A stretch of DNA of 64,000 bases. It comes from Comamonadaceae bacterium. Its GTDB lineage: Bacteria > Pseudomonadota > Gammaproteobacteria > Burkholderiales > Burkholderiaceae_C. The stretch covers positions 1 through 64,000 of the forward strand of contig CANJPU010000007.1 of NCBI GenBank assembly GCA_947476285.1, read 5' to 3'. The first letter of the stretch is position 1; the number at the start of each line of letters is the position of its first letter. Shown in pieces: positions 4,920 through 21,324 of the stretch. The position numbers were made by a program, and so were the translations under genes. The notes below the pieces were generated by a model, which saw only the letters and a list, made by a program, of their open reading frames with translations, made no database searches and was not told where the DNA came from.

Positions 4920-5562
4920 GTTCGTCGTCTTGTGAGGTAGACAGGCTCGCCTGCGGATCGGGCTCGAATGTGGCTCCGGGTGGAAGTTCGAAGCCGTCTC
5001 CGGGCGCCGACATCCCGTTTTGCAGTCCATCGAAACTCTCGGAGTCCCGCAACCGCATCCCACCGCGAAGGTAGCGATTGCGGTGATCGTGACGCGGCAG
5101 AAAGCGCGCCAACTCGGTCAGCGCCATTTCATACACGCCGCGCTTGAACTCCACCACCACGTCAAGCGGCACCCAGTACTCGTTCCAGCGCCAAGCGTCG
5201 AACTCGGGATGGCTGGTGGCACGTAGATTCAGATGCCAGTCATGGCCCATCAACTGCAGCAGGTACCAGATTTGCTTCTGGCCCTTGTAGTGGCCGCGCG
5301 CATCGCGGCGGATGTATCTGTCGGGCACCTCATAGCGCAACCAGTCGCGGGTACGGGCAACAATGCGCACATGCTCTGGCATGAGACCCACTTCTTCATG
5401 CAGTTCCCTGAACATCGCCTGCTCGGGCGTTTCGCCCCTGTCGATGCCGCCTTGCGGAAACTGCCAGCTATGGGTGCGTATGCGCTTGCCCCAGAACACC
5501 TGGTTCTTCTGATTGAGCAGGATGATGCCGACGTTCGGCCGAAAGCCGTCCCGGTCAAGCAT
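4906..5562 (-). CDS. rppH: RNA pyrophosphohydrolase RppH
   Basis: Nudix hydrolase that removes pyrophosphate from the 5' end of triphosphorylated RNAs and so starts their decay by RNase E. The start [15 protein letters not shown] matches the family, and the Nudix box runs [20 protein letters not shown] near residues 38-57. At 218 residues it is longer than E. coli RppH (176) because of a Ser/Pro/Asp-rich C-terminal tail common in Burkholderiales. The ATG at 5562 is preferred over a further upstream frame because family homology begins there. It is divergent from proS. Confidence 0.94.
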
Positions 5563-5654
5563 AATCAAACCCCAAATTTTTAAACTGAGTTCATTATGCA
5601 CGGGGCTGCGCACCTAGGCAAAAGTTCAGTATCACGTGTCTGGTTACTCACCCA

Positions 5655-7400
5655 ATGAAAGCTTCCCAGTTCTTCATATCCACCCTCAAGGAAGCCCCCG
5701 CCGATGCCGAGGTGGTCAGCCACCGGCTGATGACTCGGGCCGGCATGATCAAGAAACTCGGCGCTGGCATCTACAGCTACATGCCGCTGGGGCTGCGTGT
5801 CATTCGCAAGATTGAGGCCATCGTGCGCGAGGAAATGAACCGCGCCGGCGCGGTTGAATTACTGATGCCGGTGGTTCAGCCCGCCGAATACTGGCAGGAG
5901 ACGGGCCGCTGGAGCAAGATGGGCCCCGAGCTGATGCGGGTGAAAGACCGGCACGACCGTGACTTCATCATTCAGCCCACCAGCGAAGAAGTTGTCACCG
6001 ACATCGCTCGCCAGGAGTTGCGTAGCTACAAGCAGCTGCCCAAGAACTTCTACCATATCCAGACCAAGTTCCGGGACGAGCGGCGGCCGCGCTTTGGCGT
6101 CATGCGCAGCCGCGAGTTCATCATGAAGGACGCCTACAGTTTCGACCGCGATCCCGTGTCAGCCAAGGCCAGCTACCAGGGGATGTCGCGAGCTTACCGC
6201 GCCATCTTTGACCGCTTCGGGCTGCGATACCGCGCCGTCGCGGCTGACAGTGGGGCCATCGGCGGAGACCTGAGCGAAGAATTCCAGGTGATCGCCGCCA
6301 CCGGCGAAGACGCCATCGTCTATTGCCCGGCGAGCGATTACGCGGCCAACATGGAAAAGGCTGAGGCGCTGGCGCCCCAATCGCCTCGTGCGGCAGCGAG
6401 CCAGACCTTGACCAAGACACCCACCCCTGGCAAGAGTACTTGCGCCGATGTGGCTGCTTTGTTGAATGTGCCACTGACCACCACGGTGAAGTCGCTGGTG
6501 CTGGCCACCGACCAGCTCAATGAGCGCGGCGAGTTGGTCAAGACCGAAGTTTGGCTGCTATTGGTGCGCGGCGACCATGACATGAACGAGATCAAGGTTG
6601 GCAAGGTGCCTGGGCTGGATGCGAGTTTTCGCTTCGCCACCGTGTCCGAGATCGAAGCGCATTTCGGCGCCAAGCCCGGCTACCTCGGCCCCATTGGTTT
6701 GAAGCAGCCGGTGAAAGTGGTTGCCGACCGCGAAGTGGCGGTGATGGCCGACTGGATATGCGGCGCGAACGAAGAAGACTTCCACTTCACCGGCGCCAAC
6801 TGGGGCCGCGACCTGCCCGAGCCCCATATGGTGGCTGACCTGCGCAACGTGGTCGAGGGTGATCTTTCCCCCGACGGTGCAGGCGTGCTGGCCATTGAAC
6901 GAGGCATCGAAGTAGGGCATGTGTTCTATCTGGGCACCAAGTACAGTGCACCCATGAACGCCAGCTTCCTGGACGAAAACGGAAAACCGCAGTTGATGGA
7001 GATGGGTTGCTACGGCATCGGCATCACTCGTTTGCCCGCCGCAGCCATCGAACAAAACCATGATGAGCGCGGCATCATCTGGCCGGACGCCATTGCGCCG
7101 TTCACTGTGGTTATCTGCCCCATCGGCATGGACCGCAGTGCCCAAGTGCAGGAAGCAGCGCAAAAGCTGCACGATGATCTTCAGGCTGCAGGGGTGGACG
7201 TGATGCTCGATGATCGCGGCGAGCGGCCAGGCGCCATGTTCGCCGATTGGGAACTCATCGGCGTGCCCCATCGCGTGGTCATCTCCGATCGAGGTCTCAA
7301 GGAAGGCCAGGTCGAGTACCAGCACCGGCGCGACCCGGCGGCAAGCAAGGTGGCGGCAGCGGAAGTCTGCGGCTTCGTCAAAGCCCGTCTCGCAGTGTGA
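5655..7400 (+). CDS. proS: Prolyl-tRNA synthetase
   Basis: Class II aminoacyl-tRNA synthetase charging tRNA-Pro. The 581-residue protein starts [20 protein letters not shown] and carries motif 2 ([17 protein letters not shown]) and motif 3 ([13 protein letters not shown]). Between motifs 2 and 3, about residues 225-405, is the YbaK/INS editing domain that clears mischarged Ala, typical of bacterial-type ProS. The C-terminal anticodon-binding domain covers about 470-575. The stop overlaps the GTG start of the following lytic transglycosylase (GTGA). Confidence 0.97.
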
Positions 7401-8020
7401 TCAGCCGGCGCCACTGTCTCATGGCAGCCCCTTTCGGGCTGGGCTTGCTGTCCCTGCCCGAGGTGTCACGGGCTGGTGGCCAGCTCGAGGAACCCTTGGC
7501 CGATTCGGTGCGCGGCGCGCTGAGTTCAGCCATTGCGGCTGCCGCGCCGCCAGTGCCAGAATTTCCCGACACTCAGGCCCGGTTGACCTTTCTCAGATGG
7601 TTGGGGGAGATGAGCCGACAGCTCTCCAGGAAGAAGACCGAATGGCAGGAGCGCAAGGAGTTTCTCCAGACAGTCTGGTATGAAAGCAAGCGTGCCGGTC
7701 TGGATCCGGGTCTGGTTCTGGGCTTGATTCAGGTTGAGAGTAATTTCCGCAAGTTCGCGGTGAGCTCCGTGGGCGCGCGTGGCTACATGCAGGTGATGCC
7801 CTTCTGGACGCGCGTGATCGGCGATGGCGATGCCAGCAAGCTGTTCCACATGCAGACCAACCTGCGTTTCGGCTGCGTGATTCTGCGCCATTACATTGAC
7901 CGAGAGCGCGGCGATTTGTTCATGGCACTGGGCCGCTACAACGGCAGCCGAGGCAAGCCCCAATATCCCAACGCGGTGATGGCAGCCGGCAAGAGCTGGA
8001 TCTTCCAAGATTCCAGGTAG
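7397..8020 (+). CDS. Lytic transglycosylase, SLT family
   Basis: Peptidoglycan-cleaving enzyme expected in the periplasm. From the GTG at 7397 (overlapping the proS stop as GTGA) the 207-residue product begins with the signal-like [19 protein letters not shown]. The SLT domain has the catalytic glutamate in GLIQVESNF (E114), then [13 protein letters not shown] and ALGRYNGS, the core motifs of family 1 transglycosylases. An alternative ATG at 7421 would cut into the signal sequence. Coupling to proS recurs in Comamonadaceae; a functional link is not obvious. Confidence 0.85.
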
Positions 8021-8024
8021 ATTG

Positions 8025-9020
8025 CTATTGAATAAACCCCATCTTGGACTTGTTCGTCCCGGACCGGGGCAGGTCTTCTACGGTGATCTCAGTGCGATTG
8101 TCCAGCCGCGCATTGCCAAAGCCGGTCATCAAGGCTCTGCGCATCTCGCGCGGCGCCAACTCAGCCAACTGGTCCAGCACATCGTCCAGCGGCTCGTCGT
8201 CAAAGCGCGCGCCCCAGCCGTGTTCCATGCGGATGGACACGTACAGATTGCGGGCAATGCGCCGGGCCGCCTCGGGCGAGGGGGGTTCGATTTCGAAAAC
8301 ATTCATGCGATTGAGGATGGGCTCGGGAATGCTGCGCTCGTCGTTGGCGGTCATGATCCAGATGACTTGGCTGGCATCGATTGCCACCTCAGCGAATTCA
8401 TCCATGAAGGCGCCGGCTGTGTCGTGCTCCAGCAGGCTGTACATCGCGCCTAGCGGGTCGTACTGGGCGTCGGTGCTGGCCTTGTCGATCTCGTCCACCA
8501 CGATCACCGGGTTGGCGTACTGGCCATCTACCAGGGCTTCGAAGACTTTGCCGGGCTTGGCCCCTTTCCATTGCGAGGAGGAGCCCGACAACAACCATCC
8601 GGCTGTCATGGAGCTCATGGGCAGCAGGCTCATGCCCGTGCCCAGCAGTTCGGCCAGCTTGCGGGCGAAATGGGTCTTGCCGATGCCAGGTGGCCCAAGA
8701 AGGAGCATGGGGGTGACTTCCAATCCGTCGCGGCTGTCCTGTGACAGCGCCACATGGCGCTTCACGTCGTCCAGTGCATTGGTGAAATTGGGCAACTGGT
8801 CATAAAGGGCCGCCATGTCTGGAACGCCGCTGGGCTTGACCTGAAAGCGATCAGGTCCGCGCTCGAGCATGCGCTCGTAAGTGGTGCGCAGATTCTCGTG
8901 CTCGCGCTCAGGCAGCTTGGCAAGCTTGCGTTCGACATCGTGCGTTCGGAACACGCTGCGCAGGTTGGCGATGGGCAGTTTGAACGAAGACGAGTGGGCG
9001 ACGAGGCTGCGTGATTCCAT
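8025..9020 (-). CDS. Lon-like AAA+ ATPase without protease domain
   Basis: A 331-residue AAA+ protein with Walker A GPPGIGKT (109-116), Walker B VIVVDEID (172-179) and a sensor-type MTAND segment. The G-SS-W-GAKPGK stretch and PVIVVDEIDK resemble the Lon ATPase module, but there is no Lon N-terminal domain and no serine/lysine protease domain: the protein ends after the AAA lid. It may work as a chaperone or unfoldase with a separate partner; its substrate is unknown. A ribosome-binding site (AGGAG) precedes the ATG and a sigma54-like promoter lies just upstream. It is flanked by grxD but separated by about 150 bases. Confidence 0.8.
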   Translation of the reverse strand: MESRSLVAHSSSFKLPIANLRSVFRTHDVERKLAKLPEREHENLRTTYERMLERGPDRFQVKPSGVPDMAALYDQLPNFTNALDDVKRHVALSQDSRDGLEVTPMLLLGPPGIGKTHFARKLAELLGTGMSLLPMSSMTAGWLLSGSSSQWKGAKPGKVFEALVDGQYANPVIVVDEIDKASTDAQYDPLGAMYSLLEHDTAGAFMDEFAEVAIDASQVIWIMTANDERSIPEPILNRMNVFEIEPPSPEAARRIARNLYVSIRMEHGWGARFDDEPLDDVLDQLAELAPREMRRALMTGFGNARLDNRTEITVEDLPRSGTNKSKMGFIQ

Positions 9021-9057
9021 GTGGACGCTCCTGATGCAAGAATGACGTCTTCATTCC

Positions 9058-9073
9058 AGCATAAGCCGTGCCA
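9058..9073 (-). promoter_or_regulatory. Sigma54-type promoter candidate for AAA+ gene
   Basis: The minus strand reads TGGCACGGCTTATGCT. This matches TGGCACG-N4-TTGCW with one mismatch and keeps the exact GG-N10-GC spacing. Transcription would start about 25 bases before the AAA+ ATG. No activator gene is adjacent. Confidence 0.45.
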
Positions 9074-9137
9074 CAGTTCAATCGCTTGGAACGAACTGCA
9101 GTTTTTACTGTCGGGATTAGTTCACAACGAGGCACGA

Positions 9138-9171
9138 AGCGCGCCTGGCGACCTACAAGGCCCGGCGCGCT
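9138..9171 (-). terminator. Stem-loop at the end of grxD
   Basis: AGCGCGCC (9138-9145) and GGCGCGCT (9164-9171) form an 8-bp GC stem that overlaps the grxD stop codon. There is no U-run, so termination is possible but not certain. Confidence 0.35.
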
Positions 9172-9497
9172 CAGTTCGGCGAGTTGCCCAGCACCTGCTG
9201 CAATTCGCCGCTCTGGTACATCTCCATCATGATGTCCGAGCCGCCGACGAATTCACCCTTGACGTAGAGCTGTGGAATTGTGGGCCAGTTGCTGTATTCC
9301 TTGATGCCCTGGCGAATTCCCTCGTCTTCCAACACGTTCACCGTGGTCACCGACTTTGGGTCGACGCCGCAGGCCTTGAGGATCTGGATGGCACGGCCGG
9401 AAAATCCGCACTGCGGAAAGCTGGCGTTGCCTTTCATGAAGAGCAGCACCTGGCTGTTCTTGACGAGTTGGTCTATGCGTTGCTGTGCGTCGCTCAT
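9171..9497 (-). CDS. grxD: Monothiol glutaredoxin (CGFS type)
   Basis: Carries and transfers Fe-S clusters, usually with BolA-type partners. The 108-residue protein has the active-site motif PQCGFSGRA, the glutathione-binding [17 protein letters not shown] and the [14 protein letters not shown] helix, all diagnostic of GrxD. The ATG at 9497 has GGAGA 7-9 bases upstream and matches the family start ([13 protein letters not shown]), so a slightly longer frame is rejected. prmC lies 47 bases upstream in the same direction, so grxD may be the last gene of a hemA-prfA-prmC-grxD series. Confidence 0.96.
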
Positions 9498-17179: not shown

Positions 17180-19687
17180 TCACACTTGCGCCAGATAAGT
17201 CGCATCCACCTCTGCCACGCTGCGTGCGTACAAGTCTTTGGCGGTCTGGAGCCATTGCTCCTGCGTGGGCCATTGATGATCATTGGCCACCTGGGGGTAG
17301 ATCTGGAGGCGCAGAAACTGGTGCAGGGCATGAAAGCCCCCATCGCCCGCATTGCCCAGCAGCTCGTGCAGGGCGGCGTGAAAGGCTTTGAAGTTGCGCG
17401 TGGCCATGTGCGATTCGATCTGCTCCAGCTTCTGGCCCATCTGCGACTGGTAAACCGTGAGGCACTCGTGCAGGAACTCATCGCTGATGCGGCGCAGGCC
17501 CTCCAGACGCTCGACATTGAGCAGGGGCGTGCCCATGTCGGCCGCACTGGCGCCGGCTGGCAGCGCAGCCGACGCCTTTACGGCCGCCTGACGCGTGAGG
17601 GCGGCAGTGAGCTTGTCGCGCAAGGTGTCGGGCTCGATCGGTTTGCTCAGAAAATCGTTCATGCCTGCGGCAAAGGCCTCCTGCACGTGTTGTTCGCTGA
17701 AGTTGGCGGTCAGGGCGATGATGGGAATGGACGCGAGAGCGGCATCGGCGCGGATGATGCGCGAGGCCTGCAAGCCGCCCATGCCGGGCATCTCCATGTC
17801 CATCAGGATTGCGTCCACTGGCGTGCCCGCCTGCAAGAGCGTGACCACGGCCTGGCCGTGCTCGGCTTCGACGCAGTGGGCCTGCCACAGTGAGAGATAG
17901 GTCTTGACGATCTTGCGGTTGAACGCGCCGTCATCGGCCACCAAAATGGTCTTGCCGGCCAGCACGTGGGCGGCTGAGTCCTTGGCGCGGGCCTGGCCGG
18001 CCGCGCTGCGCATGGCCGCTTGCAAGGCGCTGACCAGTTCGGCCCGCGAGCAGGGCTTGCTCACGTAGCCATTCATGCCCACCTTTTGCGTCTTCACATG
18101 CGCCATGTAGGCTGGCTCTGAGGTGTAGGCGACGATGGGCACATCGCTCTGGCCGGCTGCCGCGCCGTGGCGGATCTGCTCGGCGGTGGCGTAGCCGTCG
18201 AGTGGCGGCATGTTCAAATCCATCAGGATCAGGTCGTAACGGGTATGCGCCATCATGGCGATGGCCTCGGTGCCGTTCGCGGCTTCGTCCAGCTGCGCGC
18301 CCAGACCGGCGAGCATGCCACGGCTGGACTTGCGCATCATGGCCTGGTCGTCCACCACCAGAATGCGCTTGCCCTGAAACGCCGCCATGGCCCCTTGCAG
18401 CACGGCGCCCTCATGCGCCTGCATCTCATCTTGCGAGACCACCGGAAAGCGCAGCGTGAACTCGGTGAACTCGCCCAGCACCGACGTGCAACCGATTTCG
18501 CCGCCAAAGGCGCGCATCGCGCGCTGGCAGTAGGCAAGGCCCAGGCCTGTGCCCTCGGCCTTGCCCGAGGTGGCGAAGGCGCCAAAGAGCTTTTCCAGCG
18601 CCTCGGGAGTGATGCCCGGGCCGGTGTCGCGCACGCGCACGGTGGGCATGTCTACCGTGATGGTGAGGCTGGCATGCGGATGCAGCTTGAAATAGTAGAG
18701 CGCGTTCTTGATGAGGTTAAACAGGATGAAGATGTAGACCGTCTCGTTGGCCTTGAAGGTGAAGTCGCGCGTGACCTGCAGGCTCACCTTGGCGCGCTCT
18801 CCCTGGGTGTCGAAGCTGTATTCGTCCACCGCCTTTTGCGTGACCTTGGCCACCTCCAGGTATTCGAAGCGGGCCGGGTCGATGGGCTTGCCGCTGACTT
18901 CGTCCAGCGTCATCTGGATGATCTGCAGGCCGCGCTTGATGGCCGTCTGGCCCTGGGCAAGCTGCTGGTAGAGCGAGTCAAGATCACGCGCCCCCAGCGC
19001 TTGCTGCTCCGCGTGCGTGGTGGGCCGAGGCAGGGTGTGTTCGATGTTGTCCAGGCTGAACTTGATCTGCCCCAGCGGGTTGCGCATTTCGTGCGCGATG
19101 GAGCCGGCCAGGCCGGCGTAGCCGCGGCGCATGCGCTTGAACTCCGCCTGCTTTTCTGCGTGGTGCGACAGCGCTCCCGTCAGCACCACCAGCACAGAGC
19201 CTGCCGCTGAGATAACGAACTCCGGCGGGACGCTGGGGTTCGCGCTCACCAAGAAATAGACCCCCATGCTCAGCGCATAACCTGCCAGCAACATCACCAT
19301 GGTGTTGCGCCAGTCTGACAGCAGCGTGATGAGGATGGCGCCCATGACCATGTTCACGACGGATGCGGTCCCCCCCTGGTTCTGCAGCATCGTGTAACTG
19401 AGCAAGAAGGACAGGCAGTAGAAGACGGTGAAGTACGAGTAAGCGAAGTAATACGGCTTGAAACGAGCGGGCCACCACGCTCGCAACCCAAGCACAAGAC
19501 AAAGCGCGGACGCTACCAGCCTGAGGGCTAGATCGTCATACAGCGCGGCGAGGGGCGAACTGGCAAGACGAAGCAGGTAAAACAAGGGAAATGCGATGAA
19601 GCCCACCACGCCCACCCACTGCAGAAACGGCCTCTCCATGTCATGATGCATGCAGTAGTTTTGATACAAGTTTCGTATTGAATGCAT
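17180..19687 (-). CDS. Hybrid sensor kinase, CqsS/LqsS-like
   Basis: An 835-residue membrane signal-transduction protein. Residues 25-170 hold about six hydrophobic helices and no large periplasmic domain, as in small-hydrophobic-signal receptors CqsS and LqsS. Then come HisKA with phospho-His H199 (GSIAHEMRNPLGQ), HATPase (NLIKNALYYF, DTGPGI, GTGLGL), a receiver with D490 (LMDLNMP), a second receiver with D630 (LMDMEMP) and a C-terminal HPt with H774 (HELLGNAGDGG). All phospho-relay residues are intact. The start is taken as the ATG at 19687; a TTG nine bases upstream is possible and neither has a clear ribosome-binding site. A strong sigma70 promoter lies upstream. The adjacent LuxI/FeeM-like acyltransferase suggests a cell-cell signalling pair. 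No output regulator is encoded nearby. Confidence 0.85.
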   Translation of the reverse strand: MHSIRNLYQNYCMHHDMERPFLQWVGVVGFIAFPLFYLLRLASSPLAALYDDLALRLVASALCLVLGLRAWWPARFKPYYFAYSYFTVFYCLSFLLSYTMLQNQGGTASVVNMVMGAILITLLSDWRNTMVMLLAGYALSMGVYFLVSANPSVPPEFVISAAGSVLVVLTGALSHHAEKQAEFKRMRRGYAGLAGSIAHEMRNPLGQIKFSLDNIEHTLPRPTTHAEQQALGARDLDSLYQQLAQGQTAIKRGLQIIQMTLDEVSGKPIDPARFEYLEVAKVTQKAVDEYSFDTQGERAKVSLQVTRDFTFKANETVYIFILFNLIKNALYYFKLHPHASLTITVDMPTVRVRDTGPGITPEALEKLFGAFATSGKAEGTGLGLAYCQRAMRAFGGEIGCTSVLGEFTEFTLRFPVVSQDEMQAHEGAVLQGAMAAFQGKRILVVDDQAMMRKSSRGMLAGLGAQLDEAANGTEAIAMMAHTRYDLILMDLNMPPLDGYATAEQIRHGAAAGQSDVPIVAYTSEPAYMAHVKTQKVGMNGYVSKPCSRAELVSALQAAMRSAAGQARAKDSAAHVLAGKTILVADDGAFNRKIVKTYLSLWQAHCVEAEHGQAVVTLLQAGTPVDAILMDMEMPGMGGLQASRIIRADAALASIPIIALTANFSEQHVQEAFAAGMNDFLSKPIEPDTLRDKLTAALTRQAAVKASAALPAGASAADMGTPLLNVERLEGLRRISDEFLHECLTVYQSQMGQKLEQIESHMATRNFKAFHAALHELLGNAGDGGFHALHQFLRLQIYPQVANDHQWPTQEQWLQTAKDLYARSVAEVDATYLAQV

Positions 19688-19719
19688 GTTATTCAAGAGT
19701 TCTTTATACCTATTTTCTC

Positions 19720-19748
19720 ATCATAGACTGAGGTATTGGGTATTGCAA
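19720..19748 (-). promoter_or_regulatory. Sigma70 promoter of the hybrid kinase
   Basis: Minus-strand TTGCAA (19748-19743), a 17-base spacer, then TATGAT (19725-19720). Transcription would begin near 19713, about 26 bases before the ATG. The promoter lies between the acyltransferase stop and the kinase start, so the kinase can be expressed independently of the upstream gene. Confidence 0.7.
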
Positions 19749-19795
19749 CGCTTGAACGCAATGCGGCCCCCTTGCGAGCCGGCTTGAGTCGGCGC

Positions 19796-20596
19796 TCAGT
19801 GCCAGAAGCGCGCGCGTGAGCCTTGGGCGCTGGTCAGCAGCGCACCATGCGAGACGGCGCCGGGTGCGTGCACTGGATGCGAGAGAGGGTCTGCCTGGGC
19901 ACGCAGCGATTTGCCAATGGCAAAACTGAAACCGAAGTCAGAACACGCGCGAAGCTCTGTTGGCATCTTGAATGCCGATGCAACTTGGGCAATGCTGCCG
20001 TGGATGAGTGCGCACTCCTTGCCGCTCTTGGTTTGCAGCGTCGCCAGCGTGGCAAACCCCATGCGCCGATACAGTCGCGTCATTCCCTTGAGGCAGGAGG
20101 CATGCAGATGTTCGACATAGCCCAGATGGATCAATTCCCTCAGGGCCAGACCCATGCACTTGAACAGGGTGTCGGGATTGCGATGTTCAGGTGCCAAGAC
20201 CAAACGCCCGACCTCCAGGCTGTGCGGGCCAAACAGTTCTGGGTCGAGTACCTCGTCGCGCCAAAGGCGCTCTGTCAGCGTCACACCTCTGTCTGTGGGG
20301 ACGAAGCGAATCGTGGCGATGGGCTTCGATTCGAAGTAGATGGCATACACGAGTCCGATCTCATCCTTCAGGGCCTCTACCTCCGCGAGGCCAGGGTCGA
20401 GTTCGTACTCAGAGGCGCAGGCGCAGTGTTTGCGCAAGTCCATGATCTCGGCCCGGTCGGCCTCAGTTCTCAGGCGGCGAACCTTGAAACTCCGATCCGT
20501 ATCGTCCGCAGGCCGGGCGCGCTTGCCCATGTCCAATAGCGTGAAACTGGGTGGCGGAAGTTGTCGAGCAAAGCTGAGTTGACCATGAGAAAACAT
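19796..20596 (-). CDS. LuxI/FeeM-like acyl synthase, GNAT fold
   Basis: A 266-residue protein whose residues 40-200 look like the acyl-homoserine-lactone synthase / N-acyl amino acid synthase branch of GNAT enzymes. DEIGLVYAIYF (78-88) with an arginine-containing strand (IATIRFVP, R97) is followed by EVGRLVLAPEHRN (128-140), the E-x-x-R-L strand typical of LuxI and FeeM, and by LYRRMGF (175-181). Such enzymes join an acyl-ACP-derived fatty acyl group to an amino-acid-type acceptor; the product here cannot be predicted. The C-terminal 60 residues are unassigned. The ATG at 20596 lacks a clear ribosome-binding site; M23 (20530) is an alternative start. It sits 108 bases upstream of the hybrid kinase in the same direction. 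An ordinary acetyltransferase remains possible. Confidence 0.65.
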   Translation of the reverse strand: MFSHGQLSFARQLPPPSFTLLDMGKRARPADDTDRSFKVRRLRTEADRAEIMDLRKHCACASEYELDPGLAEVEALKDEIGLVYAIYFESKPIATIRFVPTDRGVTLTERLWRDEVLDPELFGPHSLEVGRLVLAPEHRNPDTLFKCMGLALRELIHLGYVEHLHASCLKGMTRLYRRMGFATLATLQTKSGKECALIHGSIAQVASAFKMPTELRACSDFGFSFAIGKSLRAQADPLSHPVHAPGAVSHGALLTSAQGSRARFWH

Positions 20597-20811
20597 GATG
20601 TGTGAACGCCTTTTCGAATGTGGAAGGTGAAGGGGTGTCGCAGGCTCGTGTATTTGGCAGTGTTTGGACTCGTACCGATGCCACTTCCGTGGAATCGGCC
20701 AAAAGAACTCACTTACGTGACAATTTCGCGATTCTAGTAGTCAATTCATTTGCAAGGAATAGCCTGCGCTGCCTTTCTGCAAGAAGTAACCAGCCTTGCT
20801 ACCATTGCCCA

Positions 20812-21324
20812 ATGCATCGCCGCGAGTTCCTCAGTCTTAGCCTGGCCGGCGTCAGCGCGTCGGCCATGGCCGATCATCGGCGAGTGCATTCCATCGACGA
20901 GGGCTTGCGCTGGCTGGATCAATTGGAGGCAGCCCCCGGGGTGCATACCACCGGCAAGTGGCCTCTGGCCGTTGTGCTGTCGCACCTCTCACAGTGCATC
21001 GAGATGAGCATGGACGGCTATCCCCAGCCAAAGCATGGCTTGTATCAGTCAACTGCTGGCACCGCCTTGTTCACCTATCTGATGTTGAAGGGGCGAATGG
21101 ATCACAACCTGGATGAGCCCATACCAGGCGCTTCGCCTGCGGACCCGAGCCAGGACTGGCGGAAAGTGGCCGAACGTTTGCGTCGGGCAATGGGCCGATT
21201 CATCTCCTTCAATGGCACGCTGATGCCACATTTCCAGTTCGGACCGCTGTCCAAGGCGGAATTCACGACGCTGCACCACTTGCACCTTGCCAACCACAGG
21301 CAAGAGATCGCGTTGGTGGGGTAA
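20812..21324 (+). CDS. DUF1569 family protein with export signal
   Basis: A 170-residue protein with a Tat-like N-terminus (MHRREFLSLSLAGVSASAMA, paired arginines followed by a hydrophobic stretch), so it is probably exported. The body (GKWPLAVVLSHLSQCIEMSM, and the C-terminal LHHLHLANHRQEIAL with several histidines) fits the DUF1569 group of DinB-like four-helix proteins, which usually bind a metal through histidines. Function is unknown. The start is the ATG at 20812; earlier codons in the same frame show no family similarity. The 215 bases between it and the acyl synthase are relatively AT-rich and must hold both divergent promoters, though none is clear. Confidence 0.75.
   Translation: MHRREFLSLSLAGVSASAMADHRRVHSIDEGLRWLDQLEAAPGVHTTGKWPLAVVLSHLSQCIEMSMDGYPQPKHGLYQSTAGTALFTYLMLKGRMDHNLDEPIPGASPADPSQDWRKVAERLRRAMGRFISFNGTLMPHFQFGPLSKAEFTTLHHLHLANHRQEIALVG

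Follow-up and report, generated by a model that had tools for sequence, protein, structure and literature searches.

A predicted FeeM/LuxI-type synthase beside a CqsS-type hybrid kinase in Comamonadaceae, with sister genes split at a conserved A-run

Introduction

LuxI normally pairs with LuxR, and the Vibrio systems LuxM/LuxN and AinS/AinR place an acyl-amide synthase beside a hybrid kinase. In the rpfB-rpfF-rpfC cluster of the diffusible signal factor (DSF) system, a synthase, a hybrid kinase with an HPt domain and an acyl-CoA ligase are encoded together. A histidine kinase with a membrane sensor, encoded beside a small-molecule synthase, is also the arrangement of CqsA/CqsS, LqsA/LqsS and JqsA/JqsS (PMC3376566, PMC3566124), and lqsA-lqsS clusters were found in Polaromonas spp. 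and Burkholderia xenovorans (PMC3376566). Here we analyse a gene pair in 64,000 nucleotides of a Comamonadaceae bacterium genome (assembly GCA_947476285.1, contig CANJPU010000007.1, positions 1 to 64,000; this whole stretch is called the window), in which a synthase that looks like a FeeM/LuxI enzyme stands beside a hybrid kinase whose membrane sensor is, judged by its sequence, homologous to those of the latter systems.

Each of these systems resembles the locus in part. Compared with CqsA, LqsA and JqsA, the synthase appears to be a GNAT protein of the FeeM/LuxI kind and not a pyridoxal phosphate (PLP) enzyme of family NF005526, and compared with CqsS, LqsS and JqsS the kinase has two receivers and an HPt domain. 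In contrast to LuxI, the partner is a membrane kinase, and a conserved A-run divides the sister genes of the synthase. LuxM/LuxN and AinS/AinR have the same layout as the pair. The rpfB-rpfF-rpfC cluster, which we liken by layout, is arranged like many of the split sister copies; however, its synthase belongs to a different family. We consider it likely that the window genes encode a signal synthase and its receptor, and that in a sister clade the synthase is made whole by a -1 shift.

Results

Conservation of the gene pair

The pair lies within a 128.5-kb contig of a 4.9-Mb genome, and the window has a G+C content of 61.6%. Both open reading frames (ORFs), of 266 and 838 amino acids (aa), were found where the original prediction, which was made from the sequence alone, had placed them (Table 1). 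The kinase gene starts with TTG and has an in-frame ATG three codons on; the gap to the synthase gene is 99 bases to the TTG and 108 bases, the predicted distance, to the ATG. The strong separate promoter that had been proposed for the kinase fared less well: there is one sigma-70-like match (9/12), and with one match observed against 0.4 (standard deviation 0.7) expected in shuffles of 19600..20900 its support is weak.

A first scan of the collection with the single window protein returned no relative. A first search of 150 genomes of the family gave eight matches in six genomes, in every case with the kinase adjacent or one gene off. The synthase profile detected the gene in 12 of 399 family genomes and in 43 of 60 genomes of the genus, which we take to be Ramlibacter in the wide sense, and a comparison of the lists showed that the sensor is present in the same 43. 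One genome per species was searched, and the comparison is thus one between species. All copies from the family and genus profile searches were fetched (55 loci with 60 profile matches), and after merging of the two pieces of locus L101 these represent 59 synthase copies. A sensor kinase gene lies downstream on the same strand, with at most one gene between, in 59 of 59; one gene intervenes in four copies (L013, L034, L081, L094). The reverse view gave a synthase for 51 of the 55 genus sensors. The pair is thus real and conserved, as the check on neighbourhood proposed with the prediction had asked. In the class sample the host alone had a match (1/369; two other genomes of its family were among those listed), and the same held for the phylum sample (1/299; seven other genomes of its family among those listed). 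Searches of plasmid records with the window synthase, and with residues 1-174 of the kinase from a second pair that the host carries (see below), gave no match.

Sensor kinases of the same family also occur in other settings. Loci L202 (4999-6399) and L203 (4978-6288) encode short ones (466 and 436 aa) without a synthase, each preceded by two genes. The two before the L202 kinase gave one weak receiver match and one LuxR-type helix-turn-helix match, and the first of these resembles, by eye, the regulators beside ketone-synthase loci. In L205, a synthase remnant (14 bits, around 5200-5304) stands right before a sensor kinase gene in a genome that has two other family sensors, which looks like loss of the synthase with the receptor kept.

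The synthase family

FeeM is structurally like acyl-homoserine lactone (AHL) synthases while having no sequence similarity to them (PMC9654057). The window synthase reaches 28.1 bits against Pfam FeeM (PF21926), just above the gathering cut-off of 27, and in a whole-genome FeeM search the window copy scored 29.4 and the host's second copy 31 bits. Acetyltransf_1 (16.3 bits) and Acetyltransf_5 (16.0 bits) both remained below their cut-offs, and since the FeeM scores lie above them we rejected an ordinary acetyltransferase; this comparison had been named beforehand as a way to check the prediction. Pfam Autoind_synth (PF00765) did not match the window synthase at E values up to 1. No match to the LuxM family was returned by the Pfam searches, neither for the window synthase nor for 36 aligned members, and NCBIfam had none for the window synthase.

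These 36 members, the window synthase and 35 C-terminal parts from named records, share the FeeM match in 34 cases, and seven match Autoind_synth at E 0.1 or better. Family homology of the window synthase begins around residue 29. When the 36-member profile was run against 177,635 PDB sequences with E values up to 10, the sole match was the AHL synthase TofI, at E 0.1, which is not significant by itself. In this alignment the invariant residues D78, R97, E128 and R131 fall on RDD, ARL and WELSR of TofI, which we take to be part of the LuxI active-site core. The predicted motifs EVGRLVL and YRRMGF are present, and E128, G130, R131, R174, L175, Y176 and R178 are invariant across the 36 members. 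Taken together, the synthase looks like a FeeM/LuxI enzyme.

The kinase and its sensor

Pfam recognised a HATPase and two receivers in the kinase; HisKA stayed below the cut-off (20.2 against 26.9 bits), and the HPt, for which no Pfam match was returned, was seen by eye in the alignment. H202, D493, D633 and H777 are all present, so that the predicted set of two receivers, an HPt and intact phospho-residues was recovered. The average of 22 sequences shows six hydrophobic peaks around residues 35, 63, 97, 119, 139 and 167, in agreement with the predicted six-helix sensor. LuxN was the best NCBIfam match of the kinase, with 298.8 bits against a cut-off of 1550; membership was ruled out, since the score is far below the cut-off and the matching residues 188-560 leave the sensor uncovered.

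NCBIfam and PDB searches gave no name for the sensor. A sensor profile found distant relatives in 14 genomes besides the host among 300 genomes of the order, and 16 such loci were examined, 15 from other genomes of the order and one from the host. Seven PLP-synthase-like genes were chosen by eye from the ORF lists of these loci, and all seven match NF005526, the alpha-hydroxyketone-type autoinducer synthase, with 564-627 bits (cut-off 428); there the sensor kinase adjoins the synthase or stands about one ORF off. Aligned as a profile with the window sensor family, 13 of the 16 distant sensors gave an hhalign probability of 99.9% and E 4.8e-32 over 172 columns; seven of these 13 come from the NF005526 loci, and the comparison is with these distant relatives. 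Because the window sensor is homologous to sensors near alpha-hydroxyketone synthases, it is, by this profile comparison, of the CqsS/LqsS/JqsS kind, as the predicted likeness to CqsS and LqsS had suggested. The host genome (94.9% complete) gave no NF005526 match. The host locus among the 16 (L239, G000:C29:11500-22500, 5390-7948) holds its third gene for a hybrid kinase of CqsS type, a more distantly related protein of 852 aa; no synthase of either kind was recognised among the neighbours of that gene.

Sister genes split at an A-run

In 46 of the 59 synthase copies the N- and C-terminal domains are encoded in different frames, which part at GAAAAAAAA. The run there is eight A long (A8) in 45 copies and nine (A9) in one, and by eye the A9 copy differs from its sister through substitutions, with no insertion. 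The zero frame reads GAA AAA AAA GAG and the C-terminal frame AAA AAA AGA GAC, which is a -1 offset, and GAA AAA AAA is kept in 46 of 46 split copies. The second copy of the host is split too (L009, G000:C17:19000-38900, genes 6225-9465, run 9211-9218, corresponding to 28210-28217 of C17).

Codon bias is no explanation for the run, because AAA is rare and A8 runs occur mostly at this site. AAA makes up 117 of 979 lysine codons (12%) across the counted gene parts, a set with some short or truncated ORFs, and 60 of 773 when the count is confined to the 39 kinases at least 800 aa long; ten Lys-Lys pairs in kinases are written AAAAAA just twice. Of 52 runs of at least eight A in 572 kb of loci (both strands), 46 are this site. 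The copies are related, hence we attach no probability to conservation of the run.

Two A8 copies, L101 (genome G409) and L100 (G452), carry further frame breaks, L101 lacking two bases after the run; these breaks are possibly assembly errors in incomplete genomes. The counts for entropy, start codons, identity and the tree exclude both and use 44 of the 46 copies. Entropy per codon position over the 21 bases before the run is 1.07, 1.28 and 1.36, highest at the zero-frame third position with modest contrast. It is near zero within the run, and after it the values are 0.67, 1.45 and 0.93, where the third position of the -1 frame is clearly highest. C-terminal identities among split copies range from 30% to 88%, with a median of 45%. 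No ATG, GTG or TTG lies in the C-terminal frame between the upstream stop and the run in 32 of 44 copies, which rules out internal initiation as a general route to the C-terminal domain.

In a midpoint-drawn tree of 61 C-terminal parts the window copy falls in a run-less clade of 11, whereas a clade of 50 comprises 48 A8 members and two in-frame ones, L013 and L094. As these two stand at separate places, two reversions are most simply assumed, the direction depending on the root. When named genomes were scanned for the DNA pattern, 37 of the 73 matches were family members, among them Ramlibacter, Caenimonas, Polaromonas, Paraburkholderia monticola, Paraburkholderia oxyphila, Burkholderia sp. 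H160 and others, the remaining ones labelled Burkholderiales or below except one labelled Proteobacteria alone. These 37 were selected by the A8 pattern and thus show its spread, not its conservation.

Recoding by -1 of the dnaX type and the insertion sequence (IS) type occurs at A-runs. The split genes share with these the slippery A AAA AAA in the zero frame and the -1 offset; however, no stem-loop or Shine-Dalgarno (SD) stimulator was found here, and the product would be a signal synthase. Structure z values at the run average -0.21 and -0.36 for downstream stretches and -0.84, a slight excess, upstream, and the anti-SD energy just upstream of the run is -3.7 against -2.7, -3.2 and -3.5 in three other stretches. 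On the structure scan we rejected a downstream RNA stimulator. Some -1 frameshift sites need no stimulator. As none stands out here, we lean to slippage of the RNA polymerase or a plain ribosomal shift on A AAA AAA; these data do not tell one from the other, and both lead to the same product. In the sister copies a slippery run is conserved where the frames part, flanked by homologous coding sequence on either side, and the split genes fit programmed frameshifting or transcriptional slippage.

Unshifted translation stops 6-87 codons past the run (44 copies). When the kinase start in split copies is projected from the alignment to the window sensor, it lies -21 to +36 bases from the C-terminal stop in 40 of 44 copies, and at +102, +106, +656 and +659 in the other four. 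As the kinase start is thus near the synthase stop, translation of the kinase may be coupled to the shift.

Genes around the pair

A receiver-kinase gene, counted from 50% identity upwards, lies downstream on the same strand in 38 of 46 split copies; among the 41 loci that extend 2.7 kb or further beyond the copy, 38 have it. An acyl-CoA ligase gene follows likewise in 28 of 46 (26 of 38 with at least 4.7 kb), and a Liv-type binding-protein gene is found in seven of 46 (six of 12 with at least 6.5 kb downstream). The second pair of the host is followed by genes for a receiver-kinase, an acyl-CoA ligase and a Liv transporter. For 10 of 13 in-frame copies the opposite strand carries a gene for a Liv ATPase downstream, and in five genomes (G134, G406, G417, G449, G399) a split and an in-frame pair are convergent within about 16 kb. 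An enzyme gene of the Haem_oxygenas_2 family stands between synthase and kinase in four of the 59 copies (L013, L034, L081, L094), just before the synthase in eight (L082, L083, L087, L088, L092, L093, L095, L103) and after it in Paraburkholderia loci; this iron-containing redox enzyme could modify the product's acyl chain. None of these neighbours occurs near the window pair, over about 9 kb to one side and 11 kb to the other.

Table 1. Features of the synthase-kinase locus in the window
Feature	Position	Strand	Basis
FeeM/LuxI-type GNAT acyl synthase (predicted), 266 aa, member of the in-frame (non-A8) clade	19796..20596	-	ORF, Pfam, alignment, tree
Hybrid sensor kinase, 838 aa: six-peak sensor, HisKA, HATPase_c, two receivers, HPt	17180..19696	-	ORF, Pfam, alignment
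Membrane sensor region of the kinase, residues 1-190, predicted CqsS/JqsS-type	19127..19696	-	Hydrophobicity, profile alignment
Phospho-acceptor His202 (HEMRNP)	19091..19093	-	Alignment position; coordinate by hand
Receiver 1 Asp493	18218..18220	-	Alignment position; coordinate by hand
Receiver 2 Asp633	17798..17800	-	Alignment position; coordinate by hand
HPt His777 (LHELLG)	17366..17368	-	Alignment; motif by eye
Sigma-70-like promoter match between synthase and kinase genes, 9/12	19720..19748	-	Consensus match alone
Counterpart of the A-run site of the sister genes; in-frame stretch VEALKDEIG without A-run	20354..20380	-	Alignment, run scan

Discussion

On the computed pairing, families, frames and invariant residues we build a mechanism in which the chemistry, the sensing, the relay and the efficiency and purpose of recoding are inferred. 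The GNAT enzyme would acylate an amino acid, or an amine derived from one, as expected for FeeM/LuxI chemistry, and the CqsS-type kinase would sense the acyl product in the membrane. Phosphate would then pass from His202 to a receiver Asp, on to His777 of the HPt and finally to an output regulator. In the sister clade, the whole enzyme would be made through a -1 shift at GAAAAAAAA alone. Whether the ribosome shifts on A AAA AAA or RNA polymerase inserts an extra A, the E-K-K-R-D junction would be the same. Since unshifted ribosomes halt well short of the kinase start, the shift probably sets the level of the synthase and, through coupling, that of the kinase.

The alternative that deserves most attention is that the synthase makes an N-acyl amino acid lipid or surfactant and that the kinase monitors the state of the lipid or the membrane, with no signal passing between cells. 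Pfam names FeeM-type enzymes N-acyl amino acid synthases, and the acyl-CoA ligase gene downstream of 28 of the 46 split copies would suit such a product; however, the sensor is of a kind found near autoinducer synthases and the pairing of synthase and kinase is tight, and we regard this explanation as unlikely. That the window protein is an ordinary acetyltransferase next to a kinase by chance could appeal to the GNAT fold and to the weak Acetyltransf_1 and Acetyltransf_5 matches, but with FeeM as the best score and the kinase as neighbour in 59 of 59 copies it is scarcely credible.

Other explanations concern the A-run of the sister genes. Homopolymer runs in signal genes are classic contingency loci, and variation within species lies outside a sample of one genome per species, so that a phase-variable on/off switch in place of a programmed recoding site comes to mind. 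Yet the run length is eight in 45 of 46 copies with the single A9 arising through substitution, the -1 offset is held in 44 of 44 copies when the doubtful two are set aside, and the sole in-frame copy with an intact run is the doubtful L101. Run length and offset are thus constant, and we reject phase variation as very improbable. Nor do we believe in pseudogene decay or assembly errors as the origin of the split genes, a view for which the further breaks in L100 and L101 (genomes 63% and 90% complete) might be quoted: both parts are conserved in their own frames with C-terminal identities down to 30%, and one identical site recurs in many assemblies, which makes such an origin hardly tenable.

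Several observations weigh against a signal synthase with its receptor and a recoded sister clade. The window contains no run of at least eight A or T anywhere, and the window copy lacks the A-run as well as the cluster of receiver-kinase, ligase and transporter genes. A possible start codon lies upstream in the C-terminal frame of 12 of 44 split copies, and no downstream stem-loop or SD stimulator stands out at the run. Four of the 55 genus sensors have no neighbouring synthase. The FeeM score of the window synthase is barely over the cut-off and NCBIfam has no match for it, and an alpha-hydroxyketone synthase was demonstrated in seven of the 16 distant-sensor loci, one of the other nine having a partial gene.

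The combination had been called unusual; the A-run of the sister copies was outside the sequence on which that prediction was made. An acyl-amide synthase with a hybrid kinase has its precedent in LuxM/LuxN and AinS/AinR, so the novelty looks to lie in which protein families are paired. Among the papers listed in searches of open-access literature, which exclude bioRxiv and most subscription papers, none describes an autoinducer or FeeM-type synthase made by recoding, or a FeeM gene that has a kinase like CqsS as its partner. Closest among them were a genome-wide frameshift survey, whose main text names neither Ramlibacter nor Polaromonas (PMC3711429), and a work about ribosomal frameshifting and quorum sensing in mobile elements that PMC10470506 cites. 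We lean, with some reserve, towards a family of quorum-sensing systems in which the place of the ketone synthase next to a CqsS-type receptor has been taken by an acyl-amide synthase. In its largest branch a working enzyme would arise solely by programmed recoding at the invariant A-run, with translation of the receptor coupled to the shift; within the literature searched, this would be the first signal synthase produced in that way.

If this holds true, receptor kinases of the CqsS kind have switched their partner chemistry in evolution, from ketones to acyl amides, and the family would provide a natural series for how such sensors read their ligands. At the conserved A-run, it would offer a rare instance of recoding in a gene for signal production. 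The two in-frame members of the A8 clade and the in-frame clade of the window copy would then be ready controls for the question why a cell pays for a frameshift.

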